From assembly GCF_000382125.1 (NCBI RefSeq), contig NZ_KB907550.1:186001-250000 (forward strand): DNA of 64,000 nt. Direction: 5' to 3'. Source of the stretch: Eudoraea adriatica DSM 19308. GTDB taxonomy: Bacteria; Bacteroidota; Bacteroidia; Flavobacteriales; Flavobacteriaceae. Positions 14,214-42,267 of the stretch are shown here, in pieces. Both the position numbers and the translations under genes were made by a program. Position 1 is the stretch's first letter, and each line of letters starts with the position of its first letter. The notes below the pieces were generated by a model. It was not told the DNA's origin. It worked only from the letters and a program-made list of their open reading frames with translations, and ran no database searches.

Positions 14214-14256
14214 TGATTTATGTCATATTATTTAGAACATAAAACAAATAGATTTG
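14214..14256 (+). promoter_or_regulatory. FNR-type site and -7 box of the hemN promoter
   Basis: The palindrome TGATTTATGTCA (14214-14225) is followed by TAGATTTG (14249-14256), an exact match to the Bacteroidota -7 consensus TAnnTTTG. The palindrome centre lies 36.5 bp before the last base of the box, placing it near -42 of a start around 14262. That is a class II FNR/CRP activator position. A transcript starting there excludes the in-frame TTG at 14254 and supports translation from the ATG at 14275. Confidence 0.72.
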
Positions 14257-14274
14257 TTGAAAACACTTTTTCAG

Positions 14275-15636
14275 ATGTGCAACTTAGTACACAAATACAA
14301 TATCCCCGGCCCGCGCTATACCAGTTATCCTACGGTTCCATACTGGAATATGGATACTTTTTCGGGAAAAGCCTGGAAATCTACGCTAAAGAAAAGTTTT
14401 GAAGAAAGTAATGCCAAAGAAGGCATTAGTCTCTATATTCATTTGCCGTTTTGCGAACAAATGTGTACGTTTTGTGGCTGTCATAAGCGAATTACAAAAA
14501 GGCATGAAGTAGAGAAACCTTATATAAATACCTTATTAAAAGAGTGGAGTTTATATTGTGAACTTTTTGATGCCAAACCCATAGTTAAGGAATTGCATTT
14601 GGGAGGTGGAACCCCAACTTTCTTTTCTCCGGAACACCTTAGGAGATTAATTAACGGAATATTCAGGCATGCCGAAAGAGCCGAAAATTACGAATTTAGC
14701 TTCGAAGGACATCCAAATAATACTACGAGGGCACATTTACAGGTGTTATTTGATCTTGGGTTTAGAAGGGTGAGTTATGGGGTACAGGATTATAACGAAA
14801 CCGTTCAAAAAGCAATACACCGCATTCAGCCTTTTGAAAAGGTTAGAGATGTTACCGCATGGTCTCGTGAAATTGGGTACACATCTGTAGGTCACGATCT
14901 GATTTTTGGCCTTCCTCATCAATCTCTGGAACATGTTAAGGATACCATTTTGAAAACCAAATTGTTAATGCCCGATCGTCTGGCCTTTTACAGTTATGCC
15001 CATGTGCCCTGGCTTAAAGGGAACGGGCAAAGAGGATATTTAGATGAAGACCTTCCCACGGCAGAAGAAAAACGCAACCAGTACGAGAGTGGAAAATCCT
15101 TATTGGCTGAGGTAGGTTACCATGAAATTGGAATGGATCATTTTGCACTGGAAAGCGATTCTTTATACACTGCTATGGAATCCGGAAAACTTCACAGGAA
15201 TTTTATGGGGTATACCGCTTCCAAAACCCAATTAATGATTGGCCTTGGCGTATCCAGTATAAGTGACAGCTGGTATAGCTTTGCACAGAACGTCAAAAGC
15301 CTGGAGGAATACGAACACCTTGTGGAAAATAAGATCATACCCATTTATAGAGGGCACATTCTAACGGAGGAAGATCAAATTATAAGAGGACATATATTGA
15401 ATTTAATGTGTAGATTTGAGACACATTGGGATCCTGAAAGTAAAAATTTGATATTTTTAGAACAGATCTTGACCCGTCTAAGGGAAATGGAAAAAGACGA
15501 ATTAGTTGAAATTAGCGTTAATAGTATAAAAGTTACTGAAAAAGGAAGGCCCTTCATTAGAAACATATGTATGGCTTTTGATTTGTTGTTACATAGGAAA
15601 GCACCTGAAACCAGGCTGTTTTCCATGACTATTTAA
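14275..15636 (+). CDS. hemN: oxygen-independent coproporphyrinogen III oxidase HemN
   Basis: This radical SAM enzyme oxidatively decarboxylates coproporphyrinogen III to protoporphyrinogen IX without oxygen. The hallmark N-terminus PGPRYTSYPTVPYW is followed by the cluster motif PFCEQMCTFCGC (C-x3-C-x2-C, with the extra Cys typical of true HemN), then LHLGGGTPTF and the C-terminal HemN domain. The frame begins with a TTG at 14254, but the predicted transcription start near 14262 makes the ATG at 14275 the better choice (453 residues, normal for HemN). An FNR-type site upstream fits anaerobic induction. A universal stress protein gene follows after 30 bases and is probably co-transcribed. Confidence 0.95.
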   Translation: MCNLVHKYNIPGPRYTSYPTVPYWNMDTFSGKAWKSTLKKSFEESNAKEGISLYIHLPFCEQMCTFCGCHKRITKRHEVEKPYINTLLKEWSLYCELFDAKPIVKELHLGGGTPTFFSPEHLRRLINGIFRHAERAENYEFSFEGHPNNTTRAHLQVLFDLGFRRVSYGVQDYNETVQKAIHRIQPFEKVRDVTAWSREIGYTSVGHDLIFGLPHQSLEHVKDTILKTKLLMPDRLAFYSYAHVPWLKGNGQRGYLDEDLPTAEEKRNQYESGKSLLAEVGYHEIGMDHFALESDSLYTAMESGKLHRNFMGYTASKTQLMIGLGVSSISDSWYSFAQNVKSLEEYEHLVENKIIPIYRGHILTEEDQIIRGHILNLMCRFETHWDPESKNLIFLEQILTRLREMEKDELVEISVNSIKVTEKGRPFIRNICMAFDLLLHRKAPETRLFSMTI

Positions 15637-15666
15637 AAGTGTTTAATCACCTTAAAATCTAAGATC

Positions 15667-16491
15667 ATGAAAACAATTATAGTGCCAATTGACTTTTCGG
15701 AGCAATCAGAAAATGCTTTAAAAGTTGCTGCCAGCCTTGCCAAAAAGCACGGCTCTGAAATTATAGCCTTGCATATGCTCGAACTTAATGAGGCAATGAT
15801 TTCGTCTTCAGAAGGATTTCACCCTGAACAAACGGTATTCCTGATTAAGATGGCGGAAAAACGTATAAACGAGTTCTTGGATAAACCTTATTTAGAGGGC
15901 GTAAAGAATGTAACACCTATTATAAAGCACTTTAAAGTATTTAGTGAAGTTAACGATGTTGCTGAAAAACATGGTGCTGATATGATTATTATGGGCTCAC
16001 ATGGCAGTGATGGACTTAAAGAAATATTTGTGGGTTCAAATGCTGAAAAAGTAGTTAGAAATTCTGAGATTCCGGTTCTGGTAATTAAGGATGAAATGGA
16101 AGATTTCAAAGCTGAAAATTTTGTATTCGCATGTGCATTTAAGGACGAAAGTCTTGCAGCTTTTAAAAAAGCCCAGGAGTTTGCGGATAAATTATCGGCT
16201 AAATTACATTTGGTCTATATAAATACTCCCGGAGACAACTTTTTAAGCACACAGGACGCATATGAAAAAGTGAATAAATATTTGCAAAAAGCCGGTGCAG
16301 GAAAGGAAGTAAACGTTTACAATGATTATAGCGTAGAAAAAGGCGTTTTAAATTTTAGTGAAAGTATCCAGGCCGATGTAATCGGTATCCCAACTCATGG
16401 CAGGAAAGGACTCTCACATTTCTTTATGGGAAGTATTGGAGAGGATATAACCAACCATTCCAAAATTCCGGTGATTACTTTTAAAATATAG
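15667..16491 (+). CDS. universal stress protein, two tandem UspA domains
   Basis: This 274-residue protein is built of two UspA folds. The first domain (about 1-145) begins MKTIIVPIDFSEQSENALK and contains the ATP-loop-like GSHGSDGLKEIFVGSNAEKVV. The second (about 150-274) ends with GIPTHGRKGLSHFFMGSIGEDI. Usp proteins bind ATP or other ligands and support survival under energy or oxygen limitation. It lies 30 bases after hemN with no terminator between, so it should share the FNR-type hemN promoter. A strong hairpin follows its stop. A paralogue at 42293 also sits behind an FNR-type site. Confidence 0.9.
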   Translation: MKTIIVPIDFSEQSENALKVAASLAKKHGSEIIALHMLELNEAMISSSEGFHPEQTVFLIKMAEKRINEFLDKPYLEGVKNVTPIIKHFKVFSEVNDVAEKHGADMIIMGSHGSDGLKEIFVGSNAEKVVRNSEIPVLVIKDEMEDFKAENFVFACAFKDESLAAFKKAQEFADKLSAKLHLVYINTPGDNFLSTQDAYEKVNKYLQKAGAGKEVNVYNDYSVEKGVLNFSESIQADVIGIPTHGRKGLSHFFMGSIGEDITNHSKIPVITFKI

Positions 16492-16520
16492 TTTTAGGTT
16501 GAATAATTAATTTAATATGA

Positions 16521-16554
16521 TAAAGGGGGATCCAAAAAGATTCCCCTTTATTTA
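16521..16554 (+). terminator. hairpin terminator after hemN-usp
   Basis: An 11-12 bp stem pairs AAAGGGGGATC (16522-16532) with GATTCCCCTTT (16539-16549), with one G-U pair and a 6-base loop. It is followed by TTTAT. It lies 30 bases after the usp stop and is a good intrinsic terminator for the hemN-usp unit. Confidence 0.75.
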
Positions 16555-16679
16555 TGCCAAACCGTTAATGCCATTGATACCTTTTGGCATGGATAGAAGA
16601 ATTCTCCGAGAAGCCGGTTCCATGAATTATTTCCCAACAAATTACCGATGCAATTGTAAACTGTTTTTTCTGCAATCTT

Positions 16680-16701
16680 AAAAAGCTTAATAGCTTTTTT
16701 T
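16680..16701 (+). terminator. second hairpin with T tract upstream of the RraA-like gene
   Basis: AAAAAGCT (16680-16687), loop TAAT and AGCTTTTT (16692-16699), followed by more T, form a small intrinsic-terminator-like hairpin. It lies 65 bases before the RraA-like start. It may be a backup terminator or the end of a short unannotated transcript. The rest of 16555-16764 shows no gene. Confidence 0.4.
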
Positions 16702-16764
16702 ACGTTTTTTTTGGTTATCTTATGTAGCTTAAATTCCTATTAATCATTTAACTGCTAACCAATT

Positions 16765-17691: not shown

Positions 17692-17736
17692 TACTATAAA
17701 ATTTCTAATTCAATAACTTATCAATACCCACTTAAT

Positions 17737-19167: not shown

Positions 19168-19175
19168 ACTCCTTG

Positions 19176-20048: not shown

Positions 20049-20058
20049 AATTTGCGGT

Positions 20059-21450: not shown

Positions 21451-21527
21451 GTTGTAGTTTGAAGTAAAGGTGTTCTGTTTTAAGCAGTTTAAATTAAGCT
21501 TTTTTAAGATGTACTCCAAGAAGTTAG

Positions 21528-21984: not shown

Positions 21985-21986
21985 AT

Positions 21987-22013: not shown

Positions 22014-22056
22014 TGATTAATATCATGTTTTTAGTTTACTTCCAATCTTATTTTTG
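22014..22056 (+). promoter_or_regulatory. FNR-type site and -7 box of the nos promoter
   Basis: The palindrome TGATTAATATCA (22014-22025) is followed by TATTTTTG (22049-22056), an exact -7 consensus match. The distance from palindrome centre to the last box base is 36.5 bp, identical to the hemN, ccoS and usp promoters. Transcription should start near 22062, 20 bases before the cytochrome gene. This is the likely main promoter for the cytochrome, FAS1 and nosZ genes. Confidence 0.72.
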
Positions 22057-22081: not shown

Positions 22082-22588
22082 ATGAAACAACTACTAAAAA
22101 CTACCGTATTCCTGTTAGCTCTAATAATTATGAGTTGTGGCGGAAAAGAAGAAAAGAAAAATGACGGTTTTAGTGTTACCAGACAAAAGGCAGAAACGGA
22201 GAAGCCTGCAACTACTCCGGATGCCGATGTAACAAAAGCATCAGAACGTGTAGATCTGAACAATAAGGGTGTTGGTCCTGTAACATCAGTAGCCTTAAGT
22301 TCGGAAATCGATCAGGCAATGGCTGCAACAGGAAAAGAGGTATATAACCAAATGTGTCTTGCATGTCATAGAATTGGCAAAAAATTTATTGGCCCGGCCC
22401 CTGATGGCATTCTTGAAAGACGTACGCCGGAATGGGTTATGAACATGATTCTTAATCCCGAACAGATGGTTAAAGAAGACCCCTTGGCCAAAGATTTGTT
22501 GGTAGAGTTCAATGGTTCCCCTATGGCGAATCAGGGCCTTACCGAAGAACAGGCAAGGGCTGTCCTGGAGTATTTCAGAACCTTATAA
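22082..22588 (+). CDS. cytochrome c lipoprotein of the nos cluster
   Basis: This 168-residue protein has a lipobox (IIMSC, C19), a charged linker and one C-terminal class I cytochrome c domain with CLACH (C92, C95, H96). A Met ligand is likely within GSPMANQGL. It is the first gene of the nos cluster, directly behind the FNR-type promoter and 17 bases before the FAS1 gene. By position it is the probable membrane-anchored electron donor to NosZ, comparable to the NosC cytochromes of clade II nos clusters. Donation to NosZ is inference. Confidence 0.88.
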   Translation: MKQLLKTTVFLLALIIMSCGGKEEKKNDGFSVTRQKAETEKPATTPDADVTKASERVDLNNKGVGPVTSVALSSEIDQAMAATGKEVYNQMCLACHRIGKKFIGPAPDGILERRTPEWVMNMILNPEQMVKEDPLAKDLLVEFNGSPMANQGLTEEQARAVLEYFRTL

Positions 22589-22605
22589 CATAATAAAACA
22601 ATCAA

Positions 22606-23181
22606 ATGAAAACAAAAACTAAATTAAGACTTATTGCAGGATCATTTTTTGTGCTGACTTTGTTGGTCGGATGTAAAAATGAGGCCAAAACTAATACTTC
22701 TACGGCCACCCAGCCTGAGCAGTTATCAAAAGAATCAGGCCAGGCCTTTATAGAAGATGATGGATCTACGCCTAATGTATTACAGATTGCTATTGGTTCA
22801 CCAGATCATACAACACTTGTTGCAGCAGTACAAGCCGCCAATCTTGAAAATGCTCTTGTGAACGCAGGTCCTTTAATGGTATTTGCACCAACCAATGAGG
22901 CTTTTGATGCACTTCCTGAAGGAACTGTAGAGAACCTATTAAAACCGGAAAATAAGGATGCGTTGGCCAACATCTTAAAATATCATGTTACCCCGGGAAA
23001 TTATTCCAAGGATTTTTTAAAGAAGTTTAAAAAATTAGGACAGGCCAATGATCAGGATGTAATGATTGTTGTTGAGGGAGATGAAGTTTTGGTTGGAGGG
23101 GCTAAAATTCTTGGAAGTGTGAAAGCAGGCAATGGAATTGTCCATGTCGTAGACAAGGTAATGCTGCCACCGGAAGAATAG
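22606..23181 (+). CDS. FAS1 (fasciclin) domain lipoprotein in the nos cluster
   Basis: This 191-residue lipoprotein (LLVGC, C23) carries one FAS1 domain (about residues 55-188). Its H1 box is GPLMVFAPTNEAFDALPEG, followed by LKYHVTPGNY, and the H2-like end is GNGIVHVVDKVMLPP. FAS1 domains usually mediate adhesion or protein contacts. Here the gene is sandwiched between the cytochrome c and nosZ genes with short gaps (17 and 34 bases), so it is part of the transcript. A scaffold that holds NosZ or its donor at the membrane is a reasonable idea, but no function is established by the sequence. Confidence 0.9.
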   Translation: MKTKTKLRLIAGSFFVLTLLVGCKNEAKTNTSTATQPEQLSKESGQAFIEDDGSTPNVLQIAIGSPDHTTLVAAVQAANLENALVNAGPLMVFAPTNEAFDALPEGTVENLLKPENKDALANILKYHVTPGNYSKDFLKKFKKLGQANDQDVMIVVEGDEVLVGGAKILGSVKAGNGIVHVVDKVMLPPEE

Positions 23182-23215
23182 AAATCATTAATCAATTAAA
23201 ACTAAAGATAAAACA

Positions 23216-25168
23216 ATGAAAAATTTAAACTATTTAATTTGCATTCTCATAGGGCTAGGTATTACCTTGAGTAGTTGCAATCAATCTCAAAAAACTAATG
23301 GTGCTTTGGCATCAAGTGCTGCAGAAAAAGTTTATGTAGCCCCAGGTGAACAAGACGAGTTTTATGCTTTCCTGTCCGGAGGGTATAGCGGTAACCTTAC
23401 CGTATATGGGCTGCCCTCAGGACGTATGTTCAAGGAAATCCCGGTATTTTCACAATTCCCTACTTCTGGCTATGGATACTCCGAAGAAACAAAGCCGATG
23501 TTGAATACTTCCTTTGGATTTGTTCCCTGGGATGATTTACACCACCCGGATATTTCTCAAACCAATGGTGAATTGGATGGACGATGGATTTTTGTGAATG
23601 GTAACAACACGCCCCGAATAGCGCGGGTAAGTCTGAGTACTTTTGAGACAGAGGAGATCATTGAAGTTCCCAATAGTGCAGGTAACCACAGTTCATCATT
23701 TATTACGGAAAACACAGAGTATGTTGTAGCAGGGACCAGATTTTCAGTACCGGTACCTCAGCGAGATATGCCAATCAATGAATACAAGGGAAATTTTAAA
23801 GGCGCTTTGTCTTTTATTAGTGTAGCTCCGGATAATGGGCGATTAAATCTGGAATTCCAGGTACTAATGCCAGGTTTCAATTATGACCTTTCGCATCCTG
23901 GTAGAGGGAAATCTCATGGATGGTTCTTCTTTTCAACATATAATACTGAAGAGGCCAATTCTTTGCTGGAAGTTATGGCTTCGCAAAACGACAAGGATTT
24001 TATCGCTGCTGTAAACTGGAAGAAAATAGAGGAGTATGTAAAAAATGGTGGCGGGACGAAAATGCCGGCTAACTATGCACACAATGTCTATGATGAAGAA
24101 ACCCATACAGGAACTTCTACGATGATAAAAGAGGTAGTTACGGTAGATCCAACCCAAGTGCCGGGATCTTTATACTTCCTGCCAACTCCTAAATCGCCAC
24201 ACGGCTGTGATGTAAACCCAACCGGACAATATATTATTGGAAGCGGAAAACTTTCTGCAGACATTACAGTACACTCATTTGACAAGATGATTGCCGCTAT
24301 TGAAGGTGAAAAATTTGATGGAGAAGCGTACGGTATTCCTATACTGAAATTCGAAGAGGTCTTGGCAGGAACCGTTAAAAGTGGAGGTTTAGGGCCATTA
24401 CATACCGAATTCGATGATAAGGGTAATGCATACACCACCTTCTTTATTTCTTCAGAAGTTGTTAAATGGAAAGTAGGAACCTGGGAGGTTGTAGATAGAA
24501 AACCGACCTATTATTCTGTAGGGCATTTGATGATCCCGGGAGGAAACTCCAGGAAGCCATTCGGTAAGTATGTGGTAGCAATGAACAAGATTACCAAAGA
24601 CCGGTATCTTCCTACCGGCCCCGAAATGGAACACTCTGCGCAGATTTATGATATTTCAGGAGAAAAAATGGAATTGATATATGATTTCCCAACCCACGGT
24701 GAACCCCATTATGCTGCGGGATGCCCTGCGGAGTTGTTGGCATCAAAATCGAAAAAAATCTATCGATTAGATGAAAACAAACATAAATATGCCACTATAG
24801 GTCCTGATGATGCACGGGTAGAACGCGATGGGAATGAAGTACACATATATATGTCTACCATCCGAAGCCATTTTACACCCGACAATATTGAGGGAATCAA
24901 AGTTGGTGATAAGGTGTATTTCCATATCACGAACCATGAGCAAGATTTTGACGTACCACATGGCTTCACCATAATAGGACAGGGAACTTCCGAAATTCTG
25001 GTAATGCCGGGGCAAACCAAGACTTCGTTGTGGGAACCTAAAAAGGTTGGTGTATGGCCATTCTATTGTACGGATTTTTGTTCCGCCTTACACCAGGAGA
25101 TGCAAGGTTATATTAGAGTATCTCCTGCTAATTCAAATATTGACCTTTCCTGGTCTTTAGGAGAATAA
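23216..25168 (+). CDS. nosZ: nitrous oxide reductase NosZ, clade II (Sec-type, lipoprotein)
   Basis: This 650-residue copper enzyme reduces N2O to N2. It has a Sec/lipoprotein signal (LSSC, C21) rather than the twin-arginine signal of clade I. All seven CuZ histidines can be placed: DDLHHPD (H109, H110), GNHSS, KSPHGCDV, GPLHTEF, VGHLMIP and GEPHYAAG. The C-terminal cupredoxin domain has the CuA ligands: His in DVPHGF, C618-x3-C622-x3-H626 in CTDFCSALH, and Met in EMQGY. No residue of either centre is missing, so the enzyme should be active. It follows the cytochrome and FAS1 genes, and a strong hairpin lies after its stop. The lipid anchor would place it on a membrane face rather than free in the periplasm. 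Confidence 0.97.
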   Translation: MKNLNYLICILIGLGITLSSCNQSQKTNGALASSAAEKVYVAPGEQDEFYAFLSGGYSGNLTVYGLPSGRMFKEIPVFSQFPTSGYGYSEETKPMLNTSFGFVPWDDLHHPDISQTNGELDGRWIFVNGNNTPRIARVSLSTFETEEIIEVPNSAGNHSSSFITENTEYVVAGTRFSVPVPQRDMPINEYKGNFKGALSFISVAPDNGRLNLEFQVLMPGFNYDLSHPGRGKSHGWFFFSTYNTEEANSLLEVMASQNDKDFIAAVNWKKIEEYVKNGGGTKMPANYAHNVYDEETHTGTSTMIKEVVTVDPTQVPGSLYFLPTPKSPHGCDVNPTGQYIIGSGKLSADITVHSFDKMIAAIEGEKFDGEAYGIPILKFEEVLAGTVKSGGLGPLHTEFDDKGNAYTTFFISSEVVKWKVGTWEVVDRKPTYYSVGHLMIPGGNSRKPFGKYVVAMNKITKDRYLPTGPEMEHSAQIYDISGEKMELIYDFPTHGEPHYAAGCPAELLASKSKKIYRLDENKHKYATIGPDDARVERDGNEVHIYMSTIRSHFTPDNIEGIKVGDKVYFHITNHEQDFDVPHGFTIIGQGTSEILVMPGQTKTSLWEPKKVGVWPFYCTDFCSALHQEMQGYIRVSPANSNIDLSWSLGE

Positions 25169-25295: not shown

Positions 25296-25958
25296 ATGAT
25301 GAAAAAAGCAAGTATCCTTATGATTATTGGTCCTTTGTTTCTTTTGGGCTTATACGTTTTCCCGCTATGGAACATAATGCTGGGTGCACCACAATACCCT
25401 GAACCTTTAGGGATGAACATTTATATTGATGGTATTAAGGGAGTTAGCGAATTTGATATTCAGAACATTGATGGCCTTAATCATTATATCGGGATGCGGA
25501 CTCTGCCAAAACCGGAGGATATGTGGGAGTTTAGTACCTTTCCATGGGTCATTGGGGCAATGGTGGCCCTGGGTGTAATGATTGGTCTGCTGGGATTTTT
25601 TGAAAAAGTTAGCTACAAATGGTTCATGGGATGGTTCGTGCTTATGAGTATATTGGGAGTACTAGGCATGTATGATTTCAATGCATGGATGGTAGATTAC
25701 GGTACCAATTTAGATCCAAATGCTATAATGAAACTCACCAACGCAGATGGAACTCCCGTGAGCTATAAACCACCACTTTTCGGCCATGTAAAAATGCTTA
25801 ATTTTGACGTAACCTCTTTACCTTCTACTGGTGCGTGGTTGATGTTTGTTGGCATGATGACGACTTTAATAGCATTTTTTATGGGCAAAAAAGCATGGCA
25901 ACCCAAAGGCGAGGCTGGTGCGGTGAGCCCTATCAAAGTAAAATCAAATGATCAATAA
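25296..25958 (+). CDS. NosB-like membrane protein
   Basis: This 220-residue protein has four likely membrane segments (about 5-27, 84-104, 110-128 and 187-205). A roughly 55-residue external loop follows the first segment. It lies directly between nosZ and nosL, the position of the conserved transmembrane protein called NosB in clade II nos clusters. No metal-binding motif is obvious. Two ATG codons in tandem open the gene. The nosL start lies 11 bases inside its 3' end, so the two are coupled. Function in NosZ assembly or electron supply is inferred from context. Confidence 0.75.
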   Translation: MMKKASILMIIGPLFLLGLYVFPLWNIMLGAPQYPEPLGMNIYIDGIKGVSEFDIQNIDGLNHYIGMRTLPKPEDMWEFSTFPWVIGAMVALGVMIGLLGFFEKVSYKWFMGWFVLMSILGVLGMYDFNAWMVDYGTNLDPNAIMKLTNADGTPVSYKPPLFGHVKMLNFDVTSLPSTGAWLMFVGMMTTLIAFFMGKKAWQPKGEAGAVSPIKVKSNDQ

Positions 25959-26385
25959 ATTAGTTTATCTGAGCTTAGTTCTATTTGTATTTGCGTCTTG
26001 CGAGGTAAGTCCTAAGCCAATTAATTATGGTTCTGACGGGTGTCATTTTTGTTCTATGACCATTGTGGATAAACAGCATGCGGCGCAAATAGTAACCAAA
26101 AAAGGTAAGGCTTTTAAATTTGATGCGGTGGAGTGTATGGTGAATCATTTAAAGGATGTTGATGTGGCAACAATTGAACTTTTTTTGGTTAATGATTACC
26201 AAACACCTGGCGATTTAATCGATGCCAAAAAGGCTACTTTTTTAATTAGTAAGGAAATTCCTAGTCCTATGGGCGAATACTTGTCAGGGTTTCAATCCAG
26301 AGTTGAAGCTGAGAATATTGAAGACGAGAATAATGGTAAATTATACTCCTGGAATGAGTTGTTGACAAGATTTAAAGTAGAATAA
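25948..26385 (+). CDS. nosL: copper chaperone lipoprotein NosL
   Basis: This 145-residue lipoprotein (FASC, C18) has the NosL copper-binding region GCHFCSM (C32, C35, M37) and the family segment FKFDAVECMVNHL. NosL delivers Cu(I) to apo-NosZ during CuZ assembly. Its start overlaps the NosB-like gene by 11 bases. A long hairpin with a T run follows the stop, separating it from the cupin-nosDFY genes. Confidence 0.93.
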   Translation: MINKLVYLSLVLFVFASCEVSPKPINYGSDGCHFCSMTIVDKQHAAQIVTKKGKAFKFDAVECMVNHLKDVDVATIELFLVNDYQTPGDLIDAKKATFLISKEIPSPMGEYLSGFQSRVEAENIEDENNGKLYSWNELLTRFKVE

Positions 26386-26397
26386 TAAGATTCAATT

Positions 26398-26460
26398 TAA
26401 TGGTTAATGGTATGCGGTAATTTTAAGCCCGTTAAATTCTGTTAACCATTATTTTTTTAA
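26398..26460 (+). terminator. hairpin with T run after nosL
   Basis: AATGGTTAA (26399-26407) pairs with TTAACCATT (26442-26450), enclosing a second weaker hairpin, and is followed by a run of seven T. It has the form of an intrinsic terminator or attenuator between nosL and the cupin gene. The downstream cupin-nosDFY unit would need read-through or its own promoter; no clear -7 consensus was found in the 12 bases left. Confidence 0.7.
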
Positions 26461-26472
26461 ATAAAATATTAT

Positions 26473-26769
26473 ATGATTTATACAGTTGGCAATCAAATAG
26501 CGGATCAACCCTTTGACAATCTGCAAATAAAAAAAATAGTAAAAACAGATGCTTTGGAGATTCTCAGTATTAGTTTGGAAAAGGGTGCAACTTTTCCCGA
26601 ACATAGATCACCTAAGGATGCACAATTGATCGTATTGGAGGGTAATATTGTTTTTCATATTAATGGAAATTCATACCAACTAAAAACACAACAAAATTTT
26701 AATTTCCTTAAAGCTACGCCTCATTTCGTTAAAGCCAATGAAAACTCCAAATTTTTGATAATACGATAA
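26473..26769 (+). CDS. small cupin-domain protein in the nos cluster
   Basis: This 98-residue single-domain cupin has no signal peptide. The barrel is seen in ATFPEHRSPKDAQLIVLEGNIVF, with His at FPEH, and the closing strand FNFLKATPHFVKAN with His at TPHF. The stop overlaps the nosD start (TAATG), so it is translationally coupled to nosD. Cupins of this size can bind metals or act as sensors. No known nos gene has this role, so the function is open; copper or redox handling is speculation. Confidence 0.85.
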   Translation: MIYTVGNQIADQPFDNLQIKKIVKTDALEILSISLEKGATFPEHRSPKDAQLIVLEGNIVFHINGNSYQLKTQQNFNFLKATPHFVKANENSKFLIIR

Positions 26770-28007
26770 TGTACAAATTTCAGCTACATTTCCTGGTTTT
26801 TATATTTTTTATTGGAACTTCCCTATGGGGTAAAACGATTGAGGTATGCGCTGGTTGTGAAGTGAAATCAATAAAAGAAGGGGTTGCTCTTGCAACAGAT
26901 TTTGATACTCTTCTGATTAAAAATGGCAACTATAAAGAATTCAATATCGTTGTTGACAAACCATTAACCCTGATAGGTGAAAATTACCCGGTGATAGACG
27001 GAGAAGATCGCGGTGAAATCATTCGCATTGTTTCCGATAATGTGACAATTGATGGGCTACATATTATAAACGTAGGTACCAGTTACACTACAGATTACGC
27101 GGCTATTCGTGTGGTTAAAAGTGATAACTTTCTGATACAAAATGTAGTATTAGAGAAGCTGTTTTTCGGTATATATCTGGAAAGATCGAACAACGGGAAA
27201 GTGTATAACAACAAGATTATTGGGGATGCATTGGATGAATATAATTCTGGCAATGGTATTCAACTATGGTATTCTCACCATGTTCAGGTAGACCGGAATA
27301 TTGTGCAAGGCGTTCGCGATGGTATTTACTTGGAGTTTTCTGACAATATTGCCATAAATAACAACATCAGTGCAAATAACCTCAGGTATGGCCTTCATTT
27401 TATGTTTTCGAACGATGATGTATATACGGGTAATACTTTTGAGAACAATGGTGCAGGTGTGGCCGTAATGTTTTCCAAACGCATCAGAATGGTTGGTAAT
27501 GTATTTAAAAAAAATTGGGGTACGGCTGCATTTGGGATGTTGCTCAAGGAGATCAATGATGCTGAGATAATTGGCAATACTTTTGAGGAAAATACTATTG
27601 GCATCAATATCGAAGGTTCAAATCGTATTGAATATAAAAACAATAACTTTATTAGTAATGGGTGGGCAGTGAAAGTATTAGGGGCCTGTTATACCAATTC
27701 ATTTATCAATAATAATTTCCTCTACAATTCATTTGATATTTCATATAATAGTAAATTGAACGATAATGTATTTGAAAAAAATTATTGGAGCAATTATACC
27801 GGATATGATTTGGATAAAGATGGGATAGGCGATGTGCCTTACCGACCTGTTAAATTGTTTTCATATGTTGTGAACCGGACACCAGAAACGATTGTACTTT
27901 TACGCAGTATGTTTATGGATATAATTGATTTCTCCGAAAAAGTATCGCCTGTTTTTACACCGGATAACTTATTGGATGCAATGCCGTTAATGAAAAGATC
28001 AGAATGA
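26769..28007 (+). CDS. nosD: NosD, periplasmic right-handed beta-helix maturation protein
   Basis: This 412-residue protein has a Sec signal (first 21 residues, ending TSLWG). A right-handed parallel beta-helix of repeated N/D-rich turns (about 90-330) contains GIYLERSNNGKVYNN, GIYLEFSDNIAINNN and GLHFMFSNDDVYTGN. The NosD signature NYWSNYTGYDLDKDGIGDVPY is near the C-terminus. NosD works with NosF and NosY to assemble the CuZ sulfide cluster of NosZ. It overlaps the cupin stop by one base and the nosF start by four. Confidence 0.95.
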   Translation: MYKFQLHFLVFIFFIGTSLWGKTIEVCAGCEVKSIKEGVALATDFDTLLIKNGNYKEFNIVVDKPLTLIGENYPVIDGEDRGEIIRIVSDNVTIDGLHIINVGTSYTTDYAAIRVVKSDNFLIQNVVLEKLFFGIYLERSNNGKVYNNKIIGDALDEYNSGNGIQLWYSHHVQVDRNIVQGVRDGIYLEFSDNIAINNNISANNLRYGLHFMFSNDDVYTGNTFENNGAGVAVMFSKRIRMVGNVFKKNWGTAAFGMLLKEINDAEIIGNTFEENTIGINIEGSNRIEYKNNNFISNGWAVKVLGACYTNSFINNNFLYNSFDISYNSKLNDNVFEKNYWSNYTGYDLDKDGIGDVPYRPVKLFSYVVNRTPETIVLLRSMFMDIIDFSEKVSPVFTPDNLLDAMPLMKRSE

Positions 28008-35293: not shown

Positions 35294-35329
35294 AGCTTTT
35301 TCTATTCAAATCGATTAGGCAGAAATGAA

Positions 35330-36289: not shown

Positions 36290-36294
36290 GGCTT

Positions 36295-36477: not shown

Positions 36478-36480
36478 GAT

Positions 36481-38682
36481 CTACTTGTTTTCTGACAATA
36501 ATTCGTCTGTTTCCTTAACTTTTATATCCGTACCTAAGCGCTGTAAATAGGCGATTAGTGAAACGATCTCGCGATCTCGCATTTCCACAAATTCCAATCC
36601 GTTTTCTGCTGCATATTTTTTATCTGCCTCATAAGATTTGACGAAATCGGGATCCGCATAAAGGTTTTCTTCTATCTGAATAGACTGCTCTTCCATAGAA
36701 GCAGCAGCATTTGCAATATCTTCTTCGGTATAAGGAACACCAAGAGTAACCATAGCCTCCATTTTACCTTTTATACCGCTACGATCATGTTTGTCGCGAA
36801 CCAACCACTGATATGCAGGCATAATAGAACCTGATGAGGTACTTTGCGGGTCATACATATGGTTAAGATGCCAGCTATCGGAATATTTGCCCCCAATTCG
36901 CAATAAATCGGGACCTGTTCGTTTACTGCCCCAGAGGAATGGGTGGTCATATACAAATTCGCCTGCTTTGGCGTATTCACCATAGCGTTCCACCTCACTT
37001 CGGAAAGGGCGAATCATCTGAGAATGACAACCTACACATCCTTCTCGTATATAAAGATCTCTTCCCTCCAACTCCAAAGGTGTATATGGTTTAACACTAG
37101 TAATTGTTGGTATATTAGACTTTACCAGAATAGTTGGGACTATCTGTACAACCCCCCCGATAAGTATGGCAATAGTTGCGAATATGGTTAATTTAATAGG
37201 CTTGCGTTCCAGCCAGGTATGGTATGTTTCTCCTGCTGTTCTTTTTTTAGACACCCTTGTTAGCGCAGCTGCTTCGGCCAGTTCATCTTCAACCTCGCTT
37301 CCCGAGCGAACAGTTACCACTATGTTGTACAACATTACAACAAAGCCAACAATGTAAAGAGTACCTCCAATGGCCCGCATCCAGTACATTGGAATTATTT
37401 CATTAACGGTCTCCAGGAAATTCCCGTAAACCAGGGAGCCATCCGGATTAAAATCTTTCCACATTAATGCCTGGGTAAATCCGGCTACATACATTGGCAA
37501 TGCATATAAAATGATCCCTAATGTCCCAATCCAGAAATGGAAATTGGCCATTGGTGTAGAATACAACCTGGTTTTAAACATTTTAGGAACCAGCCAGTAA
37601 ATCATACCAAAGGCAAGAAAACCATTCCAAGCCAGGGCACCCACATGCACATGGGCAATAATCCAATCACTAAAATGCGCAATTGCATTTACATTTTTTA
37701 AGGATAACATAGGACCTTCAAAAGTTGCCATCCCATAGCCTGTTATTGCAACCACCATAAATTTAAGGGTTGGGTCTGTTCGAACTTTATCCCATGCACC
37801 TCTCAGGGTTAACAATCCATTTATCATACCACCCCAGGAAGGAGCAATTAGCATTACAGAAAACGCAACACCTAAATTTTGTGCCCAATCCGGCAAGGAG
37901 GAATAGAGTAAATGATGAGGTCCTGCCCAGATATATATAAAAATCAATGACCAGAAATGCACTATGGAAAGTCTGTATGAATATACAGGCCTGTTGGCGG
38001 CTTTCGGAACAAAATAATACATCAATCCCAAAAAGGGCGTGGTAAGGAAGAAAGCTACTGCATTATGCCCATACCACCATTGAACCAGAGCATCCTGAAC
38101 TCCCGCATATACGGAGTAGCTTTTTAAAGCACTAACCGGTAATTCCAGACTATTGAAGATATGGAGAACAGCTACGGTTACAAATGTGGCCAGATAAAAC
38201 CAAATGGCCACGTAGAGATGACGTTGTCTTCTCTTTAACATTGTTCCAATCAGGTTCCATCCAAAAGCCACCCATACCAGTGCAATTGCAATATCAATTG
38301 GCCACTCCAGTTCCGCATATTCCTTAGAGGTAGTTATGCCAAGTGGAAGTGTTATTGCCGCTGCTACAATTATGGTTTGCCACCCCCAGAAATTAAAATT
38401 ACTAAGGAAGTCACTGAACATACGGGCTTTGAGCAAGCGCTGTGTGGAGTAATAAACCCCGGCAAAGATGGCGTTCCCTACAAACGCAAAAATCACAGCA
38501 TTTGTATGCAATGGGCGAAGTCGACCAAAACTTAGAAATGATATCCCATCGGTAATATTAGGGAACAGAAACATAAATGCCAGTAGTAGTCCTACCAGCA
38601 TGCCAATGATTCCCCAGAATAAAGTAGCATAGAGGAATTTTTTTACGATTTTGTTATCGTAATAGAACTGTTGTACTTCCAT
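36481..38682 (-). CDS. ccoNO: fused cbb3 oxidase subunits CcoN-CcoO
   Basis: This 733-residue protein joins catalytic CcoN (about 1-470, 12 or more spans) and the cytochrome c subunit CcoO (about 495-733). CcoN features include FGRLRPLHTNAVIFAFVGN, WWYGHNAVAFFLTTPFLG with the CuB His, GPHHLLYSSLPDW and AHVHVGALAWNGF. CcoO has a membrane anchor and CVGCHSQMIRPF (C549, H553). The enzyme reduces oxygen at very low concentration and pumps protons. Fusion of the two subunits is known in Bacteroidota. The gene follows ccoS by two bases and leads ccoQPGH. Confidence 0.96.
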   Translation of the reverse strand: MEVQQFYYDNKIVKKFLYATLFWGIIGMLVGLLLAFMFLFPNITDGISFLSFGRLRPLHTNAVIFAFVGNAIFAGVYYSTQRLLKARMFSDFLSNFNFWGWQTIIVAAAITLPLGITTSKEYAELEWPIDIAIALVWVAFGWNLIGTMLKRRQRHLYVAIWFYLATFVTVAVLHIFNSLELPVSALKSYSVYAGVQDALVQWWYGHNAVAFFLTTPFLGLMYYFVPKAANRPVYSYRLSIVHFWSLIFIYIWAGPHHLLYSSLPDWAQNLGVAFSVMLIAPSWGGMINGLLTLRGAWDKVRTDPTLKFMVVAITGYGMATFEGPMLSLKNVNAIAHFSDWIIAHVHVGALAWNGFLAFGMIYWLVPKMFKTRLYSTPMANFHFWIGTLGIILYALPMYVAGFTQALMWKDFNPDGSLVYGNFLETVNEIIPMYWMRAIGGTLYIVGFVVMLYNIVVTVRSGSEVEDELAEAAALTRVSKKRTAGETYHTWLERKPIKLTIFATIAILIGGVVQIVPTILVKSNIPTITSVKPYTPLELEGRDLYIREGCVGCHSQMIRPFRSEVERYGEYAKAGEFVYDHPFLWGSKRTGPDLLRIGGKYSDSWHLNHMYDPQSTSSGSIMPAYQWLVRDKHDRSGIKGKMEAMVTLGVPYTEEDIANAAASMEEQSIQIEENLYADPDFVKSYEADKKYAAENGLEFVEMRDREIVSLIAYLQRLGTDIKVKETDELLSENK

Positions 38683-38684
38683 AA

Positions 38685-38900
38685 TTACAATTTTTGCTTT
38701 TTATTTAGTTGGATTGATTTTTTTATTTTGGGATCAGACTTCGCAGCCTTAGTTTTTATTAACTCATCTTCAAATAACATTCTTACCGAGGGAGTGTAAG
38801 AATCGTCATACTGACCACTGCGTACAGAAATGATAAAAGCAGCAAAGAAAACCAGTGCTACCACAATACTGATTGTAAGCAATAAATAAATAACACTCAT
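38685..38900 (-). CDS. ccoS: CcoS, cbb3 oxidase maturation protein
   Basis: This 71-residue protein has one N-terminal membrane span (IYLLLTISIVVALVFFAAF) followed by the CcoS-like SVRSGQYDDSYTPSVRMLFED. CcoS is needed for haem and copper cofactor insertion in CcoN. It is the first gene after the FNR-type promoter at 38920-38962 and lies two bases before ccoNO. Confidence 0.92.
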   Translation of the reverse strand: MSVIYLLLTISIVVALVFFAAFIISVRSGQYDDSYTPSVRMLFEDELIKTKAAKSDPKIKKSIQLNKKQKL

Positions 38901-38919
38901 ACCTACCTGAATTCTGGCG

Positions 38920-38962
38920 TAAAACTACATTCCTCACCAATTTGAAAAAATGACATATGTCA
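38920..38962 (-). promoter_or_regulatory. FNR-type site and -7 box of the ccoS promoter
   Basis: The perfect palindrome TGACATATGTCA (38951-38962) lies between the ccoI stop and the ccoS start. On the minus strand it is followed by TAGTTTTA (38927 down to 38920), one base off TAnnTTTG. The centre-to-box-end distance is 36.5 bp, the same as in the other promoters. The predicted start is near 38914, about 14 bases before the ccoS ATG. This is an internal promoter that can drive ccoSNOQPGH separately from ccoI. Confidence 0.72.
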
Positions 38963-38971
38963 GGTTTTTAA

Positions 38972-41353
38972 TTAATTTAATTTCTTTCCTATCATATTTG
39001 TTGCAAGGGTTGCAAAGGCCACAATGCTAATAGAACTAAGTGGCATTAAAATAGCAGCAATAACAGGTTCTAACTGACCTGTTACCGCAAAGTAAAGGCC
39101 AACCACATTGTACATCAATGAAAGGACAAAGCATAATTTTATGATTTTCATAGCCTTTTTTGAGGCCAGAATATATTTGTTAAGATATCTGAATTTTGTA
39201 GCATCAAGAATTCCATCGCAGGCTGGGGAGAATACATTTATGTTTTCAGAAATGGCCAGGCCAACATTGCTTTGTGCCAGTGCACCCGCATCATTTAGGC
39301 CGTCGCCTACCATAAGTACCTTTTTGTCATTGGCCTGCAACTCTTTAATGAATTCAAGCTTATCCGTTGGTTTTTGATTAAAGAATAAGGGGGTCAACTT
39401 TGGTAAAAGCTTTTCCAGCCTTCCTTTTTCACCTTCATTATCACCTGATATCACGGCCAGATCCAAATAGTGCCCCATATTTTCAAATACTTCCGAAACC
39501 CCTTCCCTGTAATTATTATGAAAAACAAAACACCCCTTATAGAGATCATTCGTGCTTACATGAACAGCAGTACTTTTATAATCACTTTGTTGCTGATGTC
39601 CCACAAAATCTGCAGAACCAACTTTTATATCACTTTTATCCTTAACACCGTGCACTCCCTTGCCGGTATATTCTGTGTAATCATCAAGCGTTTCTATATT
39701 GTGTTCTTTTAACAGCTCATAGAGCGATCTGCTCAGAGGATGATTGGAGGCCCTGAGAGTGTTTTTTAAAAGGGATTCCTCTTCAGCTGTCAATTCCATA
39801 CCTTCATAAGTGATTGCGCTGGATTGCGTAGTAGTTATTGTTCCTGTTTTATCAAATATTGCAGTATCTATAAGAGCCAGTTGCTCTATAACACCGCTGT
39901 CTTTCAGATAAAATTTATTGCGCCCGAAAATCCGTAACATATTGCCCAGGGTAAAAGGGGCTGCAAGGGCAATGGCGCACGGGCAAGCTATTATAAGTAC
40001 TGCCGTAAATACATTCAATGCCTTGCTGCTGTCATGGAACATCCAAAAAGAGGCGGCAATAAATGCAATTGTCAATACAGCGATAGTAAAACGTTTTCCA
40101 ATACTGTCCGTTAAGGTTTGAAATGTAGTTGCCTTGTCTTTTTCGAAAACAGAATTGCTCCACAATTGCGTAAGATAGCTCTGGGAAACACTTTTCAAAG
40201 TTTCTATTTCAATAGCCCCATAAGTCTGTCTGCCTCCGGCAAAAACTTTATCTCCGGAATTTTTTTTGACAGGTTCAGATTCTCCGGTTACAAAACTATA
40301 ATCTATTTGGGCTTTATTACTTATTAGGATTCCATCTACCGGGATGAGTTCCTTATTCCTTATTAGTAATCTGTCGCCTCTTTTTATATCATATACCTGA
40401 ACCGTTTCCTCTTTCTTTTTTTCATTTAATCTTGTAACCGCAATTGGAAAATAGGATTTATAATCGCGCTCAAACGAAAGGAATGAATATGTTTTTTGTT
40501 GAAAGAACCGGCCTATCAGGAGGAAAAATATCAATCCGGTGAGACTGTCAAAAAATCCGGAACCCAGATTGAAGGCTATCTCAAAACTGCTTCGTAAAAA
40601 AAGGACAAGAATTCCTAAAGCTATTGGCACATCAATATTCAAAAGCTTCGAGCGCAATCCCTTATAGGCGGAAATAAAATAGTCGCTGCCTGCATAAAAT
40701 ACCACAGGCAGTGAAAAAGCAAACATCAGCCACCTGAATAAACCTTTGTATTGATCGAGCCAAAACTCTCCTACTTCGAAATACTCCGGAAAGGATAAAA
40801 ACATAATATTTCCAAAAGCAAAACCCGCAACTCCAAGTTTATACAAAATACTTCTGTCGGTTGTACTTTGCCCTTTATCATAATCATCAAGGGAGATATA
40901 AGGCTCATATCCAATTCTTGCCAGTAGAATAACCAAATCCTTTAATGAAATCCCTGCTCTTTTAAATGTTACCCGAATCATTTTTTTAGGGAAATCTACC
41001 TGTGAATTTGTGACTCCCGGATGTAATTTTTTTAAATTTTCCAAAACCCATATACACGAACTGCAGTGTATGCCGGGAATGAAAAGATTTACAATTTGAA
41101 TTGTTCCATCATCGAATTCAATTAATCGTTGGGAGATTTTATCGGAATCAAGGAAATCATATTTTCCTTCAATTGCCTTGGGAGAAGTACCCGCACCAGA
41201 TTGCAGGTCATAGAAATAGGTCAGATCGTTCGTCTGAAAAATCTCATAAACCGTTTTACACCCGTTACAACAGAAGTTCTTTTCGTCAAATACTATCGCT
41301 GTAGTGCCGCAATTATCACTACAGTGGTAACATTTAGTCATATTCTGAAACAT
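38972..41353 (-). CDS. ccoI: CcoI/FixI, copper-transporting P-type ATPase for cbb3 maturation
   Basis: This 793-residue P1B ATPase begins with a Cys-rich metal-binding segment (CYHCSDNCG, then CCNGCKTVYEIF). A heavy-metal-associated domain with CSSCIWVLENL follows, then membrane spans, the ion-path motif IACPCAIALAAP, phosphorylation site DKTGTITT and hinge VGDGLNDAGAL. The N-terminal layout is that of the FixI/CcoI branch that supplies copper to cbb3 oxidase. It is divergent from fnr, separated by 104 bases that hold an FNR-type site. ccoS follows on the same strand after 71 bases. Confidence 0.95.
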   Translation of the reverse strand: MFQNMTKCYHCSDNCGTTAIVFDEKNFCCNGCKTVYEIFQTNDLTYFYDLQSGAGTSPKAIEGKYDFLDSDKISQRLIEFDDGTIQIVNLFIPGIHCSSCIWVLENLKKLHPGVTNSQVDFPKKMIRVTFKRAGISLKDLVILLARIGYEPYISLDDYDKGQSTTDRSILYKLGVAGFAFGNIMFLSFPEYFEVGEFWLDQYKGLFRWLMFAFSLPVVFYAGSDYFISAYKGLRSKLLNIDVPIALGILVLFLRSSFEIAFNLGSGFFDSLTGLIFFLLIGRFFQQKTYSFLSFERDYKSYFPIAVTRLNEKKKEETVQVYDIKRGDRLLIRNKELIPVDGILISNKAQIDYSFVTGESEPVKKNSGDKVFAGGRQTYGAIEIETLKSVSQSYLTQLWSNSVFEKDKATTFQTLTDSIGKRFTIAVLTIAFIAASFWMFHDSSKALNVFTAVLIIACPCAIALAAPFTLGNMLRIFGRNKFYLKDSGVIEQLALIDTAIFDKTGTITTTQSSAITYEGMELTAEEESLLKNTLRASNHPLSRSLYELLKEHNIETLDDYTEYTGKGVHGVKDKSDIKVGSADFVGHQQQSDYKSTAVHVSTNDLYKGCFVFHNNYREGVSEVFENMGHYLDLAVISGDNEGEKGRLEKLLPKLTPLFFNQKPTDKLEFIKELQANDKKVLMVGDGLNDAGALAQSNVGLAISENINVFSPACDGILDATKFRYLNKYILASKKAMKIIKLCFVLSLMYNVVGLYFAVTGQLEPVIAAILMPLSSISIVAFATLATNMIGKKLN

Positions 41354-41402
41354 TTGCTAATTACCTGATCGCGAAATTGTAGTAATTTACAGAAAATATA
41401 TA

Positions 41403-41414
41403 TGATATTTGTCA
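41403..41414. promoter_or_regulatory. FNR-type site between ccoI and fnr
   Basis: The palindrome TGATATTTGTCA lies in the ccoI/fnr divergent region. Toward ccoI, the position 36.5 bp away ends an imperfect box (CAATTTCG on the minus strand, 41379 down to 41372), so activation of ccoI is possible. Toward fnr, an exact -7 box TAATTTTG (41424-41431) lies only 22.5 bp from the centre. The site therefore covers the -28 area and would suit autorepression. Confidence 0.65.
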
Positions 41415-41423
41415 CCTTTTCGA

Positions 41424-41431
41424 TAATTTTG
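41424..41431 (+). promoter_or_regulatory. -7 box of the fnr promoter
   Basis: TAATTTTG is an exact TAnnTTTG match, placing the transcription start near 41437, about 20 bases before the fnr ATG. The FNR-type palindrome lies just upstream over the -33 area. Confidence 0.55.
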
Positions 41432-41457
41432 GGCTACTAAAGCCTAAACAAAAATTT

Positions 41458-42153
41458 ATGGGTTCTGAAAGCAGGTGTGAGAATTGCATAATACGTCAGT
41501 TTAATTCTTTGCGTGCTATGAGTAAGGAAGAGTTAAAGCAGGTATCGGATTCAAAAACCTCCAGGGTTATTAAAAAAGGGGAGGCAATTTTCGAAGAAGG
41601 TGAAAAACTTAATGGTGTTTTTTGCGTAAAGGAAGGAGTTTCAAAGCTTTCCAAACTAAGCTCCAATGGGAAAGACCAAATAGTTAAATTGGCTACTAAG
41701 GGTGAAGTAATGGGTCAGCGTTCCGTAATTGCAGAGGAGACTTCAAATTTGAGCGCAGTGGCCGTTAACGATATGGAGCTTTGCTTTATTCCAAAAGAAG
41801 TAATTGTTAATACCTTACACAAGAATCCTGATTTCACTTATGAAGTGCTTCGTCTTATGGCGCATGACCTTAGAGAAGCAGATGATGTAATCGTAAATAT
41901 TTCGCAGAAAACTGTAAAACAACGTATTGCGGAAGCGTTCCTTTATCTTAAATCTAACTATGGTGAGGACGAGAAAGGCTATTTAGTTCTTACTCTTTCC
42001 AGAGAAGATATTGCCAATGTTGTGGGTACTGCTACAGAATCCTGCATTCGGATTATTTCGGAATTTAAAAAGAAGGGCTTGTTAAAAAGTTCCGGTAAGA
42101 AACTTGGAATTTTGGATGAAAAGAAACTAAGAGATCTTGCTGAAGGATTTTAG
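41458..42153 (+). CDS. Crp/Fnr-family regulator, FNR-like
   Basis: This 231-residue protein has an N-terminal cyclic-nucleotide-binding-type beta-barrel, a long dimer helix (about 120-150) and a C-terminal winged HTH (about 165-215). C7 and C10 (RCENC) and C109 (MELCFIPKE) align by eye with E. coli FNR C20, C23 and C122. The position matching FNR C29 is N16, so one classical cluster ligand is missing. The recognition helix TATESCIRII keeps Glu194 and Arg198, consistent with TGA half-sites. The gene is surrounded by TGA-N6-TCA palindromes and the cbb3 genes, so it is the likely regulator of the local low-oxygen regulon. Oxygen sensing is inferred. Confidence 0.88.
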   Translation: MGSESRCENCIIRQFNSLRAMSKEELKQVSDSKTSRVIKKGEAIFEEGEKLNGVFCVKEGVSKLSKLSSNGKDQIVKLATKGEVMGQRSVIAEETSNLSAVAVNDMELCFIPKEVIVNTLHKNPDFTYEVLRLMAHDLREADDVIVNISQKTVKQRIAEAFLYLKSNYGEDEKGYLVLTLSREDIANVVGTATESCIRIISEFKKKGLLKSSGKKLGILDEKKLRDLAEGF

Positions 42154-42224
42154 AAAAAACTCCTATATACTCCTCGTCTGCCTTAAATAAAGCCCTGCCA
42201 ATAGTTGCATTGGATTTGAAAACC

Positions 42225-42267
42225 TGACATATATCATTGTTTCGATCTAATCACAGAAGTATTTTTA
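42225..42267 (+). promoter_or_regulatory. FNR-type site and -7 box of the second usp promoter
   Basis: The palindrome TGACATATATCA (42225-42236) is followed by TATTTTTA (42260-42267), one base off consensus. The centre-to-box-end distance is again 36.5 bp. The predicted start is near 42273, 20 bases before the usp ATG. The usp gene is thus a likely member of the same regulon. Confidence 0.7.

Follow-up and report, generated by a model that had tools for sequence, protein, structure and literature searches.

An FNR-type palindrome at a fixed distance from the −7 box in Eudoraea adriatica promoters, and its probable use by more than one activator

The hemN, nos, ccoS and usp promoters in the window (the whole 64,000-nucleotide stretch of Eudoraea adriatica DSM 19308 DNA that was analysed) each carry a TGAY-N4-RTCA palindrome whose centre lies 36.5 bp from the last base of a TAnnTTT[GA] box. 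The same phase, a gap of 23 bp between the two words, predominates across the genome, and we consider it quite probable that these are class II-type activator promoters on which the encoded FNR-like protein and a second regulator use one slot. Little has been described of low-oxygen control in Bacteroidota, a group in which clade II nosZ genes are numerous. A base-pair-exact grammar would make it possible to predict the regulons of uncultured marine flavobacteria from sequence, including the switch-on of N2O reductase, and would reveal class II activation with a sigma factor whose −7 preference differs; the cysteines of the FNR-like protein bear on whether the ligands of an FNR sensor can be exchanged.

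Spacing in the window, the genome and relatives

The sites and their genes are listed in Table 1. Four TGA-N6-TCA palindromes at a constant 36.5 bp had been proposed in an earlier note on this DNA, and the distance proved exact at all four places. The four boxes end in G twice and in A twice, TAnnTTTG being the −7 box of Bacteroidota sigma-A promoters. The motif TGAYWWWTRTCA occurs at five distinct places in the window; at the fifth, an exact TAnnTTT[GA] box is absent at the 36.5 phase. The hemN box overlaps the listed TTG start (14254), an in-frame ATG lies 19 bp past the box (14275), and the ATG is the likelier start. We take the nosZ of the window to be of clade II.

Table 1. Promoter elements and genes at the window sites
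Feature	Positions	Strand	Basis or remark
Palindrome TGATTTATGTCA, hemN promoter	14214..14225	+	sequence match
−7 box TAGATTTG, hemN promoter; palindrome centre 36.5 bp from last base	14249..14256	+	sequence match
hemN, oxygen-independent coproporphyrinogen III oxidase	14275..15636	+	TIGR00538 above cut-off
Palindrome TGATTAATATCA, nos promoter	22014..22025	+	sequence match
−7 box TATTTTTG, nos promoter	22049..22056	+	sequence match
Cytochrome c, fasciclin-domain protein and Sec-dependent nosZ; first genes of nos cluster	22082..25168	+	Pfam Cytochrom_C, Fasciclin; TIGR04246
nosL and nosD, nos cluster	25948..28007	+	PF05573, TIGR04247
ccoS, then ccoNO fusion (cbb3 oxidase)	36481..38900	-	TIGR00847, NF011053, TIGR00780
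−7 box TAGTTTTA, ccoS promoter	38920..38927	-	sequence match; composite kept in relatives
Palindrome TGACATATGTCA, ccoS promoter	38951..38962	-	sequence match
Heavy-metal P-type ATPase, ccoI by position	38972..41353	-	TIGR01525/TIGR01511 best, below cut-off
Degraded −7 box CAATTTCG towards ccoI, 36.5 position	41372..41379	-	3/5 fixed bases
Fifth palindrome TGACAAATATCA, between ccoI and fnr	41403..41414	-	faces ccoI, same gap, degraded box
FNR-like activator, cysteines C7, C10, C56, C109	41458..42153	+	Pfam/NCBIfam profiles, homologue alignments
Palindrome TGACATATATCA, usp promoter	42225..42236	+	sequence match
−7 box TATTTTTA, usp promoter	42260..42267	+	sequence match; composite kept in relatives
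Universal stress protein gene (usp)	42293..43135	+	PF00582

Over the complete genome (3.90 Mb), 76 palindrome-plus-box pairs were found at gaps of 8–38 bp, 53 of them at 23 bp and 23 across the other 30 gaps, with 0 and 1 pairs at gaps 22 and 24, respectively. The Poisson tail for 53 pairs at gap 23 is ~1e-76, or ~1e-69 if the four window sites are left out, and the reversed pattern gave 13 matches over the whole genome against the 76 real pairs. Almost all of the gap-23 sites (51/53, three of the sites with a flank shorter than 140 bp to one side) are outside any stop-to-stop frame of at least 150 codons, compared with 6 of the 13 off-gap pairs examined out of 23. The shared phase had been held to exceed chance, and the concentration at the 36.5-bp phase, the reversed-pattern count and the position outside long frames agree with this. 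The 53 boxes end in G in 25 cases and in A in 28 (the search pattern has R at that place), and a T directly follows TCA at 48 sites. In seven, the start codon is absent or more than 150 bp past the box. Downstream genes were scanned for all but three sites: C2:205906 has no ORF start within 400 bp, C4:45821 is at the edge of the examined stretch, and C1:542881 is doubtful, as it lies inside a 288-codon minus-strand frame and its nearest start is 320 bp off.

A scan of related genomes had also been proposed, and the phase recurs there: among the palindrome-plus-box pairs listed from five other genera, 80 of 150 have a gap of 23, and gaps 22 and 24 hold five each. Within 80 named FNR loci, which are of course homologous, 215 of 263 pairs (gaps 8–60) are at gap 23. 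In named relatives, every one of the 73 loci with the ccoS signature keeps the ccoS promoter composite; a composite lies within 260 bp 3' of fnr in 76 of the 80 loci, and where a usp-like start follows downstream (79 loci), it lies within 303 bp in 77. In 70 of the 80, the 200 bp upstream of fnr also contain a palindrome, and there the gap-23 position retains four of the five fixed box bases in 63 loci and three in seven; the first T of this degraded, ccoI-facing box is missing in all 70.

The FNR-like protein and its assignment to sites

The FNR-like protein matches PF00027 (cNMP-binding type) and PF13545 (Crp HTH) above cut-off, and scores 106.4 bits with the NCBIfam Fnr subfamily model, below its 228-bit cut-off. 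An ExxxR recognition helix reads TGA half-sites, and E194 and R198 align with that helix of FNR and do not vary among 24 aligned homologues. The cluster ligands of E. coli FNR are C20, C23, C29 and C122. The protein aligns with the FNR of PDB 5cvr over residues 5–228, a span that includes the cluster region, and relative to the [4Fe-4S] sensor of E. coli and 5cvr three ligand cysteines correspond, C7, C10 and C109 to C20, C23 and C122 (E. coli numbering), whereas C29 is replaced (by N, S or T in homologues; N16 in the window protein) and an invariant C56 is added. All 81 near homologues, counting the window protein itself, carry the set C7/C10/C56/C109, as do all 20 order-wide homologues, two of which need a TTG start. 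Cluster binding is not assured because the C29 equivalent is missing. The protein may well work like FNR but, since C29 is replaced and C56 is new, we do not file it as a canonical FNR; the rearranged cysteine set (C29 lost, C56 gained) looks new. The AlphaFold model was poor (mean pLDDT 60.6; 23 close homologues).

Among order-level genomes, and counting an FNR homologue where the match starts at or before residue 9 with E ≤1e-38, AT-core composites were present in 33 of the 41 with a homologue spanning the N-terminal cysteines versus 5 of the 77 others, a hand tally compared by Fisher test in which the genomes are related and the P value is not clean. The exact AT-core composite is absent from the remaining 8 of the 41, and the 5 exceptional genomes hold one or two each. 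The encoded FNR, which the earlier note had named as the likely regulator, is thereby supported for the four window promoters, its binding and activation there being predicted.

Two kinds of site and a second regulator

The 53 gap-23 sites comprise 21 with an AT core, at hemN, nos, cco, ferredoxin/POR and usp genes, and 32 others, at Hsp20, FtsH, peroxiredoxin, dodecin and usp genes. T14 occurs in 5 of the 21 versus 28 of the 32 (P 5e-6). The four window palindromes fit TGAYWWWTRTCA, and that part of the proposed regulon motif stands, but the motif misses 32 of the 53 sites. Sites of the form TGAYC..RTCATT, which often retain a TTG/TTT −33-like element, accompany a gene for a receiver-CRP/FNR fusion that adjoins a sensor-kinase-like gene: all six genomes with at least two such sites carry the fusion, and in five of them a site lies within ~6 kb of its gene. 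The AT-core sites fit the encoded FNR, and TGAYC..RTCATT appears to track the fusion. In family f5, the four FNR homologues examined lack the cysteines, and two other f5 genomes still hold looser-core gap-23 sites (G016, 6; G032, 8). The geometry had been proposed to mark a single FNR regulon; in that form the proposal was not supported, given the 32 sites lacking TGAYWWWTRTCA, the fusion's association with TGAYC..RTCATT and the sites retained in f5.

It seems unlikely, although conceivable, that FNR alone uses all 53 sites and that the cores differ through noise or with promoter strength. The TGAY/RTCA half-sites and the gap are indeed identical in both sets, but this was imposed by the search pattern, and the strong difference in T14, together with the different gene sets, is hard to accommodate. 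In several genomes an AT-core site belongs to a gene next to that for the fusion, as a single regulator would allow; against this, every genome with two or more TGAYC..RTCATT sites has the fusion, with sites mostly near its gene, and five FNR-positive genomes without a fusion match (G055, G061, G066, G100 and G127) have none. We favour at least two regulators: the fixed slot appears to be used by at least one more, the receiver-CRP/FNR fusion, with a partly distinguishable site, and its gene set looks like a stress regulon. Because AT-core sites sit directly 3' of the fusion gene in some genomes, the regulator cannot be read from the core in every case. A strict family-wide rule (AT core for FNR, C core for the fusion) was rejected owing to exceptions; the TGAYC..RTCATT composite is missing from 9 of 16 fusion-bearing genomes and occurs once in each of 4 that lack the fusion. 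For the E. adriatica genome, and no further, the rule is retained as likely.

Proposed mechanism and known systems

At class II FNR/CRP promoters of E. coli the site is centred at −41.5, and the FNR consensus is TTGAT-N4-ATCAA. In a transcription-start map of F. psychrophilum (PMC9723704) the −7 box spans −12 to −5, so the palindrome centre would be at −41.5, with start sites taken from another genus. This predicted centre, and the narrow tolerance seen in the gap distribution, are those of class II promoters and agree with the activator position near −42, on a Bacteroidota −7 element, that had been suggested. The E. adriatica promoters resemble those of E. coli in TGA-N6-TCA, in the predicted −41.5 centre adjoining the core promoter and in their low-oxygen genes; they differ in having a TAnnTTTG −7 box, which they share with F. 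psychrophilum sigma-A promoters (PMC9723704), rather than an E. coli −10, and in that the outer T/A is not required, the T past TCA being usual instead.

In the mechanism that sequence, spacing, conservation and gene content suggest for binding, activation, the cluster, the oxygen signal and the assignment of protein to site, a CRP/FNR-family dimer would occupy TGAY-N4-RTCA adjoining the −33 region and contact sigma-A RNA polymerase on the TAnnTTT[GA] −7 box, the contact surface setting the spacing to a single base pair. At hemN, nos, ccoS and usp (and ccoI, with its weak box), the dimer would most likely be the FNR-like protein, active at low oxygen, when its cysteines hold an intact iron-sulfur cluster; at other places in the genome, the fusion would occupy the same slot on TGAYC..RTCATT sites.

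Repressor sites usually tolerate variable positions, and FNR proteins usually activate such genes. Both points count against the palindrome being a repressor operator over the core promoter, its position fixed by RNA polymerase occlusion. This is very improbable: the palindrome does abut the −33 region, but hardly any pairs occur at gaps 22 and 24 in E. adriatica or in the five genera, and oxygen limitation strongly induces cbb3 genes and raises heme-synthesis enzymes in the relative F. psychrophilum (PMC9723704). Chance co-occurrence of AT-rich words can practically be discounted: both words are short and the window has 39.6 percent G+C, but 53 pairs at one gap contrast with a mean of 0.77 at the others, the reversed control falls far below the real count, and the AT-core composite control gave one match in 118 genomes.

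The architecture is known in kind, but the exact flavobacterial grammar and the slot sharing look new. No FNR operator on a TAnnTTTG box was found in the literature searched, which excluded most subscription papers and all preprints; none of the 17 papers found there with TAnnTTTG was FNR-themed by title or abstract opening. The available part of PMC9723704 describes no FNR/CRP operator, with 0 occurrences of "Crp" in its main text. CRP/FNR homologues of Flavobacteriales, Ignavibacteria and Saprospiraceae are treated as MalR-like and thought to sense carbon in PMC8510549, which reports no evidence that they control denitrification; this differs from the low-oxygen FNR reading preferred here. 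With evenly divided confidence, we extend that reading to a single −41.5 slot in Flavobacteriaceae, common to two or more activators, possibly three, that respond to distinct inputs: FNR (C7/C10/C56/C109), a phosphorylation-controlled receiver-CRP/FNR stress fusion and possibly small CRPs beside YgaP-like genes, in which the core and 3' flank, not position, would discriminate.

In proteobacterial FNR, Anr and FixK regulons, a single type of site governs hemN, cbb3 and nitrous oxide reductase genes. The E. adriatica set likewise has these genes on a common site type, and adds ferredoxin, 2-oxoacid:ferredoxin oxidoreductases, a pyridine-nucleotide-disulphide-type flavoprotein, TonB and three usp genes.

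Spacing of palindrome and -7 box

Re-reading of the window sequence bore out to the base the palindromes, boxes and 36.5-bp geometry that the earlier note had described at four promoters (hemN, nos, ccoS and usp). The 3.90-Mb genome was scanned for TGAYNNNNRTCA followed, with 8-38 bp between them, by TANNTTTR, where a gap of 23 bp sets the palindrome centre 36.5 bp before the last box base. The fixed spacing proposed for the window promoters extends over the genome: 53 of 76 matches had gap 23, the remaining 30 gaps together contributed 23 (at most three at any one gap), and the reversed pattern gave 13 matches against the 76. The excess corresponds to a Poisson tail of ~1e-76, or 1e-69 once the four window sites behind the idea are left out. 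A T immediately 3' of the palindrome was present in 48/53 gap-23 sites but in only 8/23 off-gap pairs. Outside any stop-to-stop frame of at least 150 codons lie 51 of the 53 gap-23 sites, and 7 of 13 off-gap pairs examined (from the 23) lie inside one. A start codon occurs within 400 bp downstream of 51/53 sites, the box-to-start distance (median, 30 bp) being 10-60 bp in 33 of these 51. At C2:325261-325334, between a ferredoxin and a 2-oxoacid oxidoreductase gene, and at C8:18288-18361, a single palindrome is common to two divergent gap-23 promoters; one dimer could there face two polymerases.

At class II promoters of E. coli, FNR and CRP bind centred at -41.5. PMC9723704 places the F. psychrophilum -7 box at -12 to -5; because the palindrome centre lies 36.5 bp from the last box base, it would fall at -41.5 in Eudoraea, provided that the box position can be carried over from another genus. 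The class II mechanism suggested in the earlier note is the best reading.

Genes downstream of two kinds of site

Sites were called AT-core if the core fits TGAYWWWTRTCA on either strand, giving 21 AT-core and 32 other-core sites among the 53. T at position 14 was found in 5/21 AT-core versus 28/32 other-core sites (P = 5e-6), and TT[GT] after TCA, a -33-like element, in 4/21 versus 20/32. The first downstream genes of 50 of the 53 sites were covered by a Pfam scan, in which 11 had no match and two matched DUFs only.

Genes following gap-23 sites, and two regulator genes
Feature	Coordinates	Strand	Preceding gap-23 site	Signature
FNR-like gene	window 41458-42153			
Receiver-cNMP-HTH_Crp fusion, 352 aa	C4:461720-462775	minus		
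hemN			AT-core	TIGR00538
Cytochrome c/fasciclin-domain/Sec-dependent nosZ cluster			AT-core	TIGR04246
ccoS-ccoNO			AT-core	TIGR00847, NF011053
usp	window 42293		AT-core	
usp	C1:77244		AT-core	
usp	C4:460304		AT-core	
Ferredoxin, two 2-oxoacid:ferredoxin oxidoreductases, pyridine-nucleotide-disulphide-type flavoprotein, multihaem cytochrome			AT-core	
TonB, FadL-like porin, MlaE, alkyl sulfatase			AT-core	
Hsp20, FtsH, LonB-like protease, AhpC/TSA peroxiredoxin, dodecin			other-core	
usp	C4:461647		other-core	
PNPOx-like protein, LytTR response regulator, OmpA-family protein, two YgaP-like proteins			other-core	

About half of the other-core set is unspecific or without known function, and the label "stress regulon" would rest on the minority of genes named. 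The lineage is aerobic, and the two oxidoreductases and ferredoxin under AT-core sites at C2:321800-328000 were unexpected; they may indicate a micro-oxic or fermentative mode.

The TTG at 14254 that the ORF finder gave as the hemN start overlaps the -7 box, and the in-frame ATG 14275 is probably the true start. The FNR-like gene is flanked by ccoI and usp. A palindrome occupies the ccoI-fnr spacer in 70 of 80 named loci; the box facing ccoI, degraded to CAATTTCG in the window, retains at gap 23 four of five fixed bases in 63 of these 70 and three in seven, its first T missing in all 70. Since palindrome and partial box recur in relatives, the four window promoters are probably five, the fifth being that of ccoI, with a weak box.

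Conservation of the spacing and of FNR cysteines

The 80 best FNR loci are headed by one from a Flavobacteriaceae MAG (97 percent), followed by six Eudoraea records (88-96 percent), the nearest named relatives. Around the FNR gene in 80 named loci, 215 of 263 pairs (gaps 8-60) had gap 23, a count that reflects conservation and not independent events because the loci are mutually related; gaps 9 (17 pairs) and 17 (10 pairs) followed. The composite of palindrome and box precedes ccoS in 73/73 loci bearing the ccoS signature; in 76/80 it is found within 260 bp 3' of fnr. Across five further genera of the family, gap 23 accounted for 80 of the 150 matches listed, gaps 22 and 24 for five each, and no remaining gap for more than five; 16 more matches, all from genome G010, fall outside those 150. 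With TANNTTTG, the composite occurred in 56/198 genomes of the phylum versus five control matches, including 19/19 of the own family, and was sparser beyond it.

C7, C10, C56 and C109 are present in all 81 close FNR homologues, the window's own included, and C196 in 35; position 16, equivalent to E. coli C29, is always N. Order-wide (n = 20), C56 and C109 are invariant, C7/C10 occur in 18 by first-ATG starts or in all 20 if TTG starts of two are allowed, and position 16 holds N, S or T. Alignment to FNR of PDB 5cvr and its variants agrees with this register, and we infer from the sequences that C7, C10, C56 and C109 would hold an iron-sulfur cluster. All four cysteines were absent from the four homologues inspected in the order-level family f5, although f5 genomes G016 and G032 have six and eight gap-23 sites with a looser core; there the same slot may respond to another signal.

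Regulators proposed to share the promoter slot

Four proteins of the genome contain a Crp HTH: the FNR-like protein, the fusion and two small CRPs. Upstream of the fusion is a 631-aa ORF resembling, by eye, a sensor kinase, and downstream lies a usp gene preceded by a gap-23 site. AT-core composites occurred in 38/118 order-level genomes (one control match): by hand tally, in 33 of the 41 whose FNR homologue covers the N-terminal cysteines and in 5 of the 77 others. These five comprise two fusion carriers, two genomes of 0.6 Mb and one member of f5, a family in which 1/19 genomes with a homologue has the composite.

Full-length fusion relatives, judged by frame length and alignment, were found in 15/117 other order-level genomes (16/118 including our own), and TGAYC..RTCATT composites in 11/118 (one control match). 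All six genomes with at least two such composites carry the fusion, five of them with a site within ~6 kb of its gene. The fusion is also present in G010, with a single match; a fusion search in the single-match genomes G014, G077, G087 and G102 found none, and nine fusion-bearing genomes have no such composite. Near fusion genes of other genomes, gap-23 sites precede usp-, Hsp20-, peroxiredoxin- and YtxH-like genes and, in G075 and G071, a kinase-like gene (by eye, from first residues); in some genomes the site beside the fusion gene is of the AT-core kind. Because of these AT-core sites and the nine genomes, the two kinds are not cleanly separable across the family. The geometry proposed for an FNR regulon stands, but not as one regulon: the second site type and its link to the fusion call for a wider, shared promoter slot. 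A class II slot served by FNR and the fusion is, in our judgement, likely, short of near-certain because the link of the second site type to the fusion has exceptions.

Gap-23 sites at C1:566481 and C1:200285 precede YgaP-like transmembrane genes, one directly after a small CRP gene and the other ~4 kb from the second; the small CRPs are perhaps a third regulator on the same geometry.
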